From a virus, in IMG/VR virus record IMGVR_UViG_3300025117_000410, positions 1 to 42,272 of that record: DNA of 42,272 bases; one strand, given 5' to 3'. The first letter of the stretch is position 1. Each line of letters begins with the position of its first letter. Of the stretch, positions 6,251-24,193 are shown in pieces. The notes under the pieces were generated by a model. The model had not been told where the DNA came from. It saw only the letters and a program-made list of their open reading frames with translations, and did not search any database. A program made the position numbers and the translations under genes.

Positions 6251-9200
6251 TTATTGCCCGAAATAACTTCTTAGCAATTCTATGAACTGCTCTAACGTCT
6301 CAGTAGGTTTACCATACTTAATCCATAGTCTGTTTAGTTCACTCCTTGCCCCGCCTTCCAGCGGCTGTCCAGAATAGAAGTAGCCTAGCATCCTGTTGGT
6401 TAGCGCCGAGTTGAAGTCATTCGGATCAATCTCAAATGCCGCCAAGTTATCACGCTGATACTTCTCCTTGGTCAATTCTTCTAACCGTGGATACTGTTGC
6501 TTCACACCCTTGTTCCAATCCCAATATGTCCTTAGTTCAGGATGTAAGTTCAAGAATGCTTTACGATTTTCCTTTGGTAACGCATAGTACCTGTTCTGTG
6601 TTGCGGTAATGTTCCCGAACAACTGTTCACGTTGCTGGTAATACCAATCCAATACTTGATTTTCAGCAGGCGTACCCGTGTCAACTTGCGGTACGTTTAC
6701 GTTGTACTCTTTCGCCAATTCAGGCAGTTCAGCACCCATAGCCTTAGACCATGCAAGCAGTGTTTCCGTGTCAATCGAATCGTAGGATCGTGTTTCCTTG
6801 CTAAGAAACGATGTCTGGAACTCTTCACCAAACGCCGCATACAATCTATCCTTAGTCAGCTTAGGCAACTGTTGTGACATATCCCAAATGGCTGATACGG
6901 CAAACTTGCGCAACTTATCTTCAGGCGTGTCAGCAAATGCCATTGCCCTGGCTGCGTATTCAGGATGCTTGTCAAAGAACTCAGCCACAGTATTGGCTTC
7001 CAATGCTGCCCTGAACTCTTCATGCAGTTGGCGTATTTCTTGTTCGCCTTCTGGAAAGAAGTCAGTAGAAAACGATGACGCGAAGTAGCGCACAGACTGG
7101 CGCTTGCCTACCAGGTCTAACGCTTCTGTGTATGCCGGACCTGTCCTGTCAATCATGGCTTTGCTTACTTCTTCGTAGCTGTACTTACCCAAGGCTGCCA
7201 ACCATGACAGTTCACGGTCAACGTAGTAATCCCAATATTCACCGCCAACCTGCAAACCTAATGCCTTGCGTAGTGGCGCTTCAAGATTGACACCGCCTGG
7301 CGTAGCCCATGAAGTCAATGCCTGGATCGCCCTGGTTACAGGCAGTTCGCCTATCTTTTCTTTCTTGTTGCTAATCAGTTTGTACGCCCAATCCAAAGGC
7401 ATAAGCATACCTGAGATAGCAGTCATAAAGTCCATTGGATTATTGAACTCACTGCCTATCTCTACCTTAGCCTGCGCCAAGGCTTTCTCCCAAGTCTCAC
7501 CTTCTTTGGTGTCTATAGCTTGCTGTAATACTTCCCTATCTTCTGTCTCATCAGCCGCCCATTGTTCCAGGATGTAACGCGCCCTGGTATCCAATGCGTT
7601 ACTATCTTCAGCCATGCGCATAAACGGTTCGGATAGAAGCTGGATAGGAAACAGTTGACGCATCGGATCAATGTACACACTGTCACCCATGAAGTCTGGT
7701 AGCCAAGGCATTTCTATCTTTATCTTGCCAGCCAGTCTGGAAGGATAACCTTCCCTACGATCATTCTTCTTTTGCGCGGCGTGTAACCGTCCCCATGTAG
7801 CCAAGTAGCCTGGCTTGTCAATAGAACGCATCGCCCAATTAGCCATGCTTCTTGAATACCAGAACTGATAAGGCATCACAGCCGTCAGGAACGTATCGAA
7901 ACCGTACCGCTTCTGGTAGTTCAGTAATGAGAAGTCCCGTAGTTGTTCAGCGTGTTTGATTGCCATGTTCTTAGTGTCTGACATCTGTCCGTACACACCG
8001 CCAAGGTATCCCTTCAGTTCTTTCAACTTAGCAGCATCAAGGTTAGCGCCCTTCAAGGTCGTTGCGTGCTTGCCATTAGCGCCAAGTAATTCCCGTTGCA
8101 GTTCCTGTAGTAATGGCAATCCATGTTCAAACCAGTTGTTTTCCATCGTTGCGTAAACGTCAGGCAACGTGTCGAACTTATCCAGCATCCCCATTGGAGC
8201 ACTCATGCCGTTGTTAGGTGTATTCACAGACTCTGAATTTCTAGCCACATCGTACACGCCATTGACATCATCGAAGTTGCTTCTGTGATAGTCCTTTATT
8301 CGCCGTTCATGTTCCGGTACGAACTGCTTCCACAAGGCGCTACGTTCCCCATGCGTTTTACCTGTTGTCGCTAGACGTAATGCTTCCATATCGTTGCGCA
8401 TAACATCACGCATTTCAACTAGCTTTGTGCGCCATGCAATCGTAGCATCGCCAACGCCATCGCCATACTGTCTGCGCATTGCCTGTTGCACATAATCGCT
8501 CATCTGCAATTCGATGTTATGTTCTACATCAACGTGCTTGCGATACAAGTCGTTCGCTAGTCTTTCATACTCAGCAAAATATAATTCACTATAACCATCC
8601 TTGAATACTTCTTCCTGCATCTTGCGAATTTCTTTGTAGAACTCTTTCCAGTTATCGAACCATGATTGCTGTGTATCAAACAGTCCCTTACCAATATCGT
8701 CAGTCAAATCTACAGATTGTCTGATAGCGTCCAGGTCAGCCATCGTTCTTTGTTCAAACCTGTTGTAGCGCAACCGTTCCGCTTCGTAGTGCTTCCTCAT
8801 AATTTCGTTATACAGTTTTTTATCTATGTTTGGATTATCGTCTAAGAAATCCCACAAGCGTTCATTAGCGCGCCAGCGTGCAATTTCAGTCATCTCCATG
8901 TCAATGCTATTATTCGCAAAGTAATCAACGAACTCAACAGAACCAGACACACCAAACTTAGCACGTAACTTCTCAGCATGATACTGTTTGTACTCAGCAG
9001 CCTGGCTTTCAAACCAGTTGTCAGCCATCTTCATGGCTTCCCCAACAACCTTGACAACATCATCATTCGATATGTCACCCTTCAAGTTGTCATTCAAGAA
9101 GTCATCTATACCTAGCTTGTGAAATATATCCCGTGCCATTTCAGGCTTTAGTCCTGCACGTTCAGCAGCGATAGGGACTAAGTCATCAAAGTGTTTGCGT

Positions 9201-18584: not shown

Positions 18585-18612
18585 TTGACAAGCATAGACA
18601 ATAGTGTATAAT
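18585..18612 (+). promoter_or_regulatory. Main rightward (early) promoter
   Basis: Perfect hexamers TTGACA (18585-18590) and TATAAT (18607-18612) with a 16-bp spacer. It drives the long rightward unit. GCATACCACA follows at 18617-18626, the same word that forms one arm of the operator at 19340-19349. Confidence 0.9.
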
Positions 18613-19307: not shown

Positions 19308-19336
19308 TTGACAACGATTGTGTGGTATGCTACAAT
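19308..19336 (+). promoter_or_regulatory. Second rightward promoter
   Basis: TTGACA (19308-19313), 17-bp spacer, TACAAT (19331-19336). The -10 lies in the loop of a 12-bp inverted repeat, so a bound repressor would block polymerase. Confidence 0.88.
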
Positions 19337-21916: not shown

Positions 21917-21928
21917 ACTACTTCGGGG

Positions 21929-22013
21929 GCTGCGCATCCGACAAAACACGCGGCATGTTCTCTCCTCCTTACGGTTCAGCCCGCGTGGTACGGGCTGGAC
22001 CAAAGGGAGAACA
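21929..22013 (+). ncRNA. Tandem stem-loops after recT
   Basis: Helix 1: GCTGCG (21929-21934) with CGCGGC (21949-21954). Helix 2 starts one base later: TGTTCTC (21956-21962) with GAGAACA (22007-22013), enclosing an inner stem GTTCAGCCCG/CGGGCTGGAC around a 7-base loop. No U-run follows, so it is not a plain terminator. It may be an mRNA processing site, an attenuator or a small structured RNA. The ribosome site of the next gene follows. Confidence 0.55.
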
Positions 22014-22036
22014 CACAAACGAAAGGGATAAAGAAG

Positions 22037-22673: not shown

Positions 22674-22858
22674 AAGACATATTAGACTTGCAAGTATTAC
22701 ATGACCTAAGCGTTGCGTTGTTGCGCATCATGCAATCGGAAGGAACGTCAGCACACACAAGTTACATTGATGAAGTTGACTACGTTGACGCACCAGAAGG
22801 TAAATGCTATCGCATCACAATCAACTTAGAACTTGTAGACGAAGGAGATAGGACATGA
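22670..22858 (+). CDS. Small protein, unknown
   Basis: 62 residues, an amphipathic helix followed by a beta strand pair (GKCYRITINLELVDEG). ATGA overlap with both neighbours, so translation is coupled. No family recognised. Confidence 0.6.
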   Translation: MKDILDLQVLHDLSVALLRIMQSEGTSAHTSYIDEVDYVDAPEGKCYRITINLELVDEGDRT

Positions 22859-23010
22859 AACGACTAATCATTATCATCTTGGTTGTACTGGCAATCACAT
22901 TTGTAATGACATTCGATGTCATGGCAGGTGGTGACAAACAGCGCGGCGACAAGGGACAAGGCAGCGTGAACCAGCACTTTGTCATGCCACCTTGGTGGGC
23001 AATGAACTAG
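22855..23010 (+). CDS. Small secreted or membrane-anchored peptide
   Basis: 51 residues. A basic start and a hydrophobic core (IIIILVVLAITFVMTF) end in DVMAGG, a signal-peptide-like cleavage site. The mature part is polar and ends VMPPWWAMN. Its stop adjoins the structured RNA. Confidence 0.6.
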   Translation: MKRLIIIILVVLAITFVMTFDVMAGGDKQRGDKGQGSVNQHFVMPPWWAMN

Positions 23011-23320
23011 GAATTACGAGTTTATTCCGAGATTACGCTGCGGCGCATGGTACACAAGGCGGCTGCACTCCTACTGCTGATCCATGCGCAACTAGACGGA
23101 CCGCCACCAAGGACAGGATGCGAATTCCCCCGCAGCGAATGACCAGGCACGCGTAGAGGCGTATGCCCCGCACCTGGCAAACACGCGAACCGTAAGCGGC
23201 AGTACGGTATGCGCAAAATCATCTTCTTGTTTTGGGACGACTGCCGCAGATGATAATAGCCTGGGTGTAGCGCATCCTAACCGATGTGCGCCCGTCGGGT
23301 AACGGACATCCAGGCATCAG
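23010..23320 (+). ncRNA. Candidate large structured non-coding RNA
   Basis: About 310 bases, GC-rich and without a convincing gene, between two early genes. Perfect helices: CGCTGCG (23036-23042) with CGCAGCG (23131-23137); GCGCATGG (23043-23050) with CCATGCGC (23082-23089); CCAGG (23143-23147) with CCTGG (23173-23177); ACCGTA (23189-23194) with TACGGT (23203-23208); ATCATCT (23218-23224) with AGATGAT (23248-23254); GCCTGGGTGT (23259-23268) with ACATCCAGGC (23306-23315, one G-U); GCGCATC (23270-23276) with GATGTGC (23283-23289); CCGT (23292-23295) with ACGG (23302-23305). The loop GCGGCAG (23196-23202) pairs with CTGCCGC (23241-23247) in another hairpin loop, a kissing interaction. GGCGG (23058-23062) may pair with CCGCC (23101-23105). 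I match no known class. No IscB/IsrB-like protein is in the window. Confidence 0.78.
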
Positions 23321-23332
23321 ATTGGAGGAGCG

Positions 23333-23663: not shown

Positions 23664-24026
23664 ATGAATGATCCTAAAGTAATAGAGCCATTGGCAGAAT
23701 ATGCACACAAAGCATGGTCTGGATGGATGCGGTATCTATTCAACGAGGCAACAGATAATCCAGACGGAACAGTAACAGTACCAGAATGGGCGGTATCTAG
23801 GTGGAAGCGTCAAATGCATACAGACTACGCGGACTTGCCTGAAACAGAAAAGGAAAGCAATAGAGTTGAAGCTGAAATGATTGTAACAACCATTGGTAAT
23901 ATCAAGAGAATTGCGGCAGAAGAGTTTGTAAAAAGAGTTGAGGGTATTGATCCTAATTGTCTCACGGTTGAGAGAAGAGGCGATAAATGGATTATAGGAA
24001 ATGACAAAGATAACAAGAAAGGATGA
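23664..24026 (+). CDS. Early protein with RyR-like domain
   Basis: 120 residues from the ATG at 23664, with AAAGG 9 bases upstream (in-frame ATGs at 23634 and 23655 lack this). AHKAWSGWMRYLF, then WAVSRWKRQMHTDYADLPETEKESNRVEAEM. The YxxLPExEKESxRxEA pattern is seen in phage RyR-type domains. Function unknown, perhaps ligand binding. Confidence 0.65.
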   Translation: MNDPKVIEPLAEYAHKAWSGWMRYLFNEATDNPDGTVTVPEWAVSRWKRQMHTDYADLPETEKESNRVEAEMIVTTIGNIKRIAAEEFVKRVEGIDPNCLTVERRGDKWIIGNDKDNKKG

Positions 24027-24031
24027 GTAAC

Positions 24032-24193
24032 ATGGAGCAAATCAAAGAGTGTCCGTATTGTGGATCGGCGATAGCGGTAGTGTTTGAGAACATAGCGTAT
24101 AAAGAATTTGTTGGCTACGTAAAGTGCGATTGTGGCGCAACCGGTCCAGACGGACGGTCGGAAGAAGACGCCATCCTCCTCTGGTGGCGATAG
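24032..24193 (+). CDS. Lar-like restriction alleviation protein
   Basis: 53 residues. Two zinc-binding pairs, ECPYCGSA and KCDCGATGP, followed by EEDAILLWWR, match the short Lar family order CPxCG ... CxxCGAxGP ... EAIxxWN. Lar proteins of prophage Rac lessen type I restriction. Such phage zinc proteins often carry the name without proof. GGATGAG ribosome site. Confidence 0.75.
   Translation: MEQIKECPYCGSAIAVVFENIAYKEFVGYVKCDCGATGPDGRSEEDAILLWWR

Follow-up and report, generated by a model that had tools for sequence, protein, structure and literature searches.

We found that a stretch of about 280 bases in an uncultured bacterial virus is almost certainly a functional structured RNA. It lies between two early genes and is composed of two modules, A and B. 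The window analysed is virus record IMGVR_UViG_3300025117_000410, 42,272 bases in length. Comparison with a homologous locus, L002, in IMG/VR contig IMGVR_UViG_3300020048_000259, from a virus that is otherwise largely unrelated, shows that module B has a conserved fold and module A is under constraint, and also shows a modular make-up and linkage to a small protein. Most likely the RNA serves to control or protect the downstream gene as an intrinsic element. We favor, with a probability of about 0.5, a structured leader that acts in cis from an intercistronic position in the early polycistronic message. The elements of the locus are as follows.

22855-23010, plus strand: 51-aa open reading frame, upstream neighbor of the gap, encoding a small signal-peptide-like protein
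23035-23315, plus strand: structured RNA with two modules
23035-23142, plus strand: module A, a closed pseudoknotted domain
23136-23142, plus strand: junction CGAATGA between modules A and B, its single occurrence in the window
23136-23315, plus strand: module B, with an invariant hairpin, an H-type pseudoknot and a 10-bp stem
23324-23332, plus strand: ribosome-binding site GGAGGAG and spacer, outside every conserved helix
23333-23569, plus strand: gene for a small basic protein of 78 aa; an 82% identical protein is found directly after module B in L002

The gap between the 51-aa frame (end 23010) and the 78-aa frame (start 23333) contains no convincing gene. Its GC content is 0.54-0.62, against about 0.42 in the surroundings. 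A protein-coding alternative was rejected: one frame stays open in both phages, but within the window it lacks a start codon, and its substitutions look non-coding. A GC-rich, gene-free stretch between early genes had been described in an earlier, sequence-only reading, and the reading frames, base composition and non-coding substitution pattern agree with it, although the start of the element moves from 23010 to 23035. The products of 22855-23010 and of L002 6222-6389, both small and signal-peptide-like, have in common the motif GGDK-RG--G-GSV-QH; their positions differ between the phages.

The minimum folding energy is -111.2 kcal/mol, compared to -104.5 ± 5.5 for shuffled sequences (z -1.22), and 12 of 100 shuffles folded as well. 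The sequence-only reading had argued that so dense a set of complementary segments is not expected by chance. Since the folding energy is unremarkable, this argument is insufficient by itself. The basis for a real RNA is instead a homologue with compensatory changes.

This homologue was found by searching with the downstream 78-aa protein. In L002, a relative of window 23136-23330 stands directly before the protein copy, and its first 120 bases are 86% identical. Window 23035-23142 has its counterpart elsewhere in L002, at 1084-1186, with 82% identity. The large terminase of the window has no match in the L002 contig, and pieces of the early region do match it, which indicates mosaic phages with a common early-gene cassette. 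The search for compensatory changes that the earlier reading had called for was thus successful in one homologue; two members are known and the covariation is that of a single sequence pair, window against L002.

Module B contains the following helices.

23143-23147/23173-23177, plus strand: P2 hairpin, CCAGG/CCTGG; the element spans 23143-23177
23151-23153/23169-23171 and 23158-23160/23165-23167, plus strand: inner helices of P2
23185-23194/23203-23212, plus strand: P3, first stem of the H-type pseudoknot; the first loop is 1 nt
23196-23202/23241-23247, plus strand: pseudoknot helix GCGGCAG/CTGCCGC
23215-23221/23227-23233, plus strand: P4 hairpin within the long pseudoknot loop, formable in both phages
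23259-23268/23306-23315, plus strand: P5, a 10-bp stem that encloses P6
23281-23286/23293-23298, plus strand: P6 hairpin, formable in both phages

P3 and P5 are visible from the window alone and carry the covariation. Five pairs differ in P3, all standard in L002, three of them changed on both sides. Five pairs also differ in P5, all standard in both phages, and four are changed on both sides. Together, all ten differing pairs are standard in L002, seven are changed on both sides, and one is an A-A mismatch in the window. The probability of this outcome is 1.2e-4 under random substitution at the changed sites. A test that includes P4 and P6 gave 5e-6, a value to be discounted because their pairing was picked with both sequences in view. 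In the tool alignment, P4 shows one consistent change and one window mismatch that pairs in L002. When the 3' partner strand is slid by 1-3 columns, the paired cells in P2-P4 drop from 96% to 26-50%. P2 does not vary between the two phages over 42-43 nt, in a surrounding alignment of 85% identity, so covariation cannot be tested for it. G-U pairs are found on the plus strand only, in P3, P4, P5 and P6, which favors an RNA in the direction of the genes.

The pseudoknot helix is invariant, with all seven pairs present in both phages. The sequence-only reading had seen in it two kissing hairpin loops. The 7-bp contact holds, but the kissing hairpins do not: the stem ATCATCT/AGATGAT is missing from L002, so the contact pairs the P3 loop with a single strand. 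As the contact sits in the loop of the covarying P3, both can coexist only as an H-type pseudoknot. Without the pseudoknot helix, the consensus helices fall short of the minimum-energy fold by 12 kcal/mol in the window and by 3 kcal/mol in L002. A three-way junction had also been proposed. Its 10-bp closing stem, P5, is present letter for letter and conserved in L002, whereas its two inner arms are not conserved and P6 provides an alternative inner hairpin.

Module A is of a different character. Its elements, and those of the corresponding region in L002, are listed below.

23036-23043/23130-23137, plus strand: S1 closing stem
23043-23050/23082-23089, plus strand: S2 hairpin; base 23043 can be used by S1 or S2, not both
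23058-23062/23101-23105, plus strand: module A pseudoknot GGCGG/CCGCC, 5 bp in the window and 7 bp in L002
23119-23125, plus strand: T-loop-like TGCGAAT, 12 bp away from the closing-stem end (closing stem and T-stem counted)
L002 1201-1869: DNA methyltransferase gene, between module A and A'
L002 1871-1916: A', a short 5' domain before module B, with a 7-bp closing stem, a 5-bp arm and the loop TGCAATT

None of 31 stem positions in module A differs from L002, compared to 25 of 79 other positions (Fisher p 9e-5). In this sequence comparison, the invariance of the stems shows constraint, not covariation. A T-loop-like motif occurs in both module A and A'; it deviates in the same way (U55 to G) and lies 12 bp from the stem end in each. 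The A' stack measures 7+5 bp, and its 7-nt loop, UGCAAUU, is closed by a G53-C61-like pair; by sequence it resembles the acceptor/T-arm stack of a tRNA. The T-stem of module A in the window is weak, with three of five pairs. In tmRNA, YrlA and RNase P model substrates, a T-loop-like hairpin stacks with a closing stem to a total of 12 bp, and the hairpin and 12-bp stack described here may be comparable. Unlike these tRNA-like domains, the window RNA lacks a CCA end (AATGA comes after the module A stem) as well as D and anticodon arms, and it has no match in Rfam or ARAGORN, in addition to the weak T-stem; ARAGORN found no tRNA gene in the whole window. An HDV fold was considered for module A in a comparison with known ribozymes, and the helix order does not fit. 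The Y RNA motif GNCGAANG has no exact match.

Module A could be an RNA-processing or mRNA-protection element, at which a host nuclease (e.g. RNase P) or an exonuclease block would separate and stabilize the downstream mRNA. The acceptor-like stem and T-arm of 12 bp in A' are consistent with such a role, as is the position of module A alone ahead of the methyltransferase gene in L002. However, the weak T-stem in the window argues against it and the conservation of module B is left unexplained, and we consider it quite unlikely.

The methyltransferase gene is part of a cassette at L002 1187-1914, which parts module A from module B and has CGAATGA at either end. The simplest reading of the sequences is that this cassette entered or left at the A/B junction, the direction being undecidable. 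Module edges that are also recombination edges, with CGAATGA at both ends of the insertion, could point to a DNA-level element, such as a folded single strand, a mobile-element end or a recombination site, rather than an RNA. Such an element would not account for G-U pairs restricted to the plus strand. Compensatory changes and the placement relative to start codons also fit an RNA, and a DNA-level element is the least probable of the explanations.

The leader is favored by its position. The last helix is 17 nt away from the start codon in the window, 20 nt away in module B of L002 and 19 nt away in module A of L002, ahead of the methyltransferase gene. With the structures ending 17-20 nt before the start codon, the ribosome-binding site is free, which favors a cis-acting intercistronic leader. 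The RNA starts 25 nt (window), 1 nt (module B in L002) and 5 nt (module A in L002) past the upstream stop codon, which leaves little space for a promoter of its own. Such a compact site between stop codon and ribosome-binding site argues for a leader in a polycistronic message over a large free-standing RNA. In addition, module B has stayed linked to the small protein in two phages with unmatched terminases: the same protein, the small basic one mentioned in the earlier reading, follows module B in both. A pseudoknot is also located upstream of the ribosome-binding site, as in leaders of the gene 32 type, with the P3 pseudoknot followed by P5. Three observations argue against the leader. Module A precedes a different gene in L002, the methyltransferase gene, and is therefore not tied to the small protein. 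A simple translational operator would be expected to be smaller than about 280 nt. No conserved helix sequesters the ribosome-binding site, which gives the RNA no evident means of repression.

Perfect (12/12) and near-perfect (11/12) sigma-70-type promoters are found at window 18585-18612 and 19308-19336, and are likely the starts of a rightward early operon. No promoter-like site was found adjoining the RNA, and no intrinsic terminator-like site on the plus strand at 18.3-26.5 kb. The gene for the 78-aa protein has a dN of 0.076 and a dS of 0.167 between window and L002. The protein has no Pfam or PHROG match, and its AlphaFold model is unreliable (pLDDT 54), too poor for a structure search. 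Two further folded segments are found in these phages. Window 21917-22036, a second intercistronic gap rich in GC, folds strongly (z -3.06), ends shortly before a ribosome-binding site and is possibly a second structured leader; it matches no Rfam family apart from chance microRNA matches and has no copy in the L002 phage. L002 6389-6450 forms a very stable long hairpin after the gene for a small secreted-type protein (z -5.83 for 6389-6535), unrelated in sequence to the window RNA, with similar arms at L002 5020-5064.

We propose the following mechanism for the leader. Transcription would begin near 18.6 and 19.3 kb, at the two strong sigma-70-type promoters. The RNA would fold in the intercistronic gap into a compact block beside the landing site of the 30S subunit, and would set the output of the small protein through ribosome access and mRNA decay. 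The small basic protein, perhaps a ligand of the leader, would probably exert feedback by binding it. Module A carries a tRNA-like T-arm in a stack of 12 bp; it would be a detachable upstream domain and may serve host nucleases as a barrier or a processing site.

Processing of the leader into a free-standing RNA is possible. A trans-acting stable RNA could be cut from the early transcript and act alone or in complex with the small basic protein, for example against host defence, with module A mimicking a tRNA for protection or recruitment. The compact pseudoknotted fold and the T-loop-like motif with U55 to G in both A and A' are consistent with this, as are the anti-restriction neighbors, the Lar gene (24023-24193) and the L002 methyltransferase. 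However, the element has no promoter or terminator of its own, leaves little space on either side between the stop codon and the ribosome-binding site, and carries no CCA end, tRNA call or Rfam tRNA match; we regard a trans-acting RNA as a possible but minor alternative. A more specific form, a phage RNA-protein complex in which an RNA cut from the early message, with a tRNA-mimicking domain, is bound by its small basic partner for host takeover or counter-defence beside anti-restriction genes, appears unlikely. The product of 24023-24193 is a Lar-like restriction alleviation protein, and a 47-bp stretch at the start of its gene is identical in L002.

Searches for known families and further members gave no match beyond L002. 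In Rfam 15, which includes GOLLD, ROOL, OLE, HEARO, tmRNA, riboswitches, group I introns and Y RNA, nothing in the window reached the gathering score, and relaxing the threshold to E 5 brought up nothing but a chance microRNA match, on the opposite strand. The earlier statement that the RNA belongs to no known class agrees with this, and the RNA corresponds to none of the catalogued families. A third member was not found by searching IMG/VR for patterns taken from P2, from the pseudoknot and from module A, by the small protein (single sequence and alignment) in viral and genome collections, through terminase relatives, in phage records (DNA and protein) and plasmid records (DNA), or by covariance models on collected loci. 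The covariance-model search recommended by the sequence-only reading thus gave no member beyond L002 in the collections searched. One chance match pointed to a particular phylum, and a module B covariance model applied to 400 of its genomes also gave no further member. Thirteen genome pattern matches were judged to be chance. Three other loci were rejected as relatives: L036, a chance match inside a protein gene (L037 is the same DNA), and L039 and L040, chance matches inside open reading frames.

The closest functional parallel is the T4/RB69 gene 32 leader, also from phage and intercistronic, with a pseudoknot that immediately precedes the initiation region. The protein encoded by T4 gene 32 binds this pseudoknot (PMC535899). 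In T4, a gene for a homing endonuclease adjoins the pseudoknot and overlaps with it (PMC535899), an arrangement similar to the methyltransferase gene between two modules in L002. The T4/RB69 leader is a simple pseudoknot of about 28 nt before a single-strand binding protein gene, whereas the RNA described here has about 280 nt, two modules and an unrelated sequence. GOLLD and ROOL are likewise phage-borne and contain several pseudoknots (PMC12286853). They are several hundred nt long and often near tRNA islands (PMC12286853), whereas the window RNA is much smaller. The likeness to large ornate RNAs raised by the earlier reading is not supported: about 280 nt is below GOLLD and ROOL, neither was matched in Rfam, and the window has no tRNA genes.

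The put RNAs of HK022 are cis-acting structured RNAs that act on polymerase in early phage operons (PMC9378689); for the window RNA, cis action is a proposal. A processive antitermination or anti-pausing RNA, like put or EAR, would suit an early operon with many genes, as put RNAs act in this way (PMC9378689). However, put RNAs are about 70 nt, with two stem-loops near promoters (PMC9378689), and this architecture differs from that of the window RNA. The element is also located about 4 kb into the operon, with no nearby plus-strand terminator-like site (18.3-26.5 kb) and no Rfam match, which makes such a function very unlikely.

The window and L002 thus contain a new structured RNA of uncultured phages, with comparative support, that escapes both folding energy and Rfam, and its partner is a small protein of no known family. 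If the small protein binds the RNA, the two would form a new phage RNA-protein regulatory pair. The modular make-up suggests that early phage genes can carry and swap their own RNA control elements.
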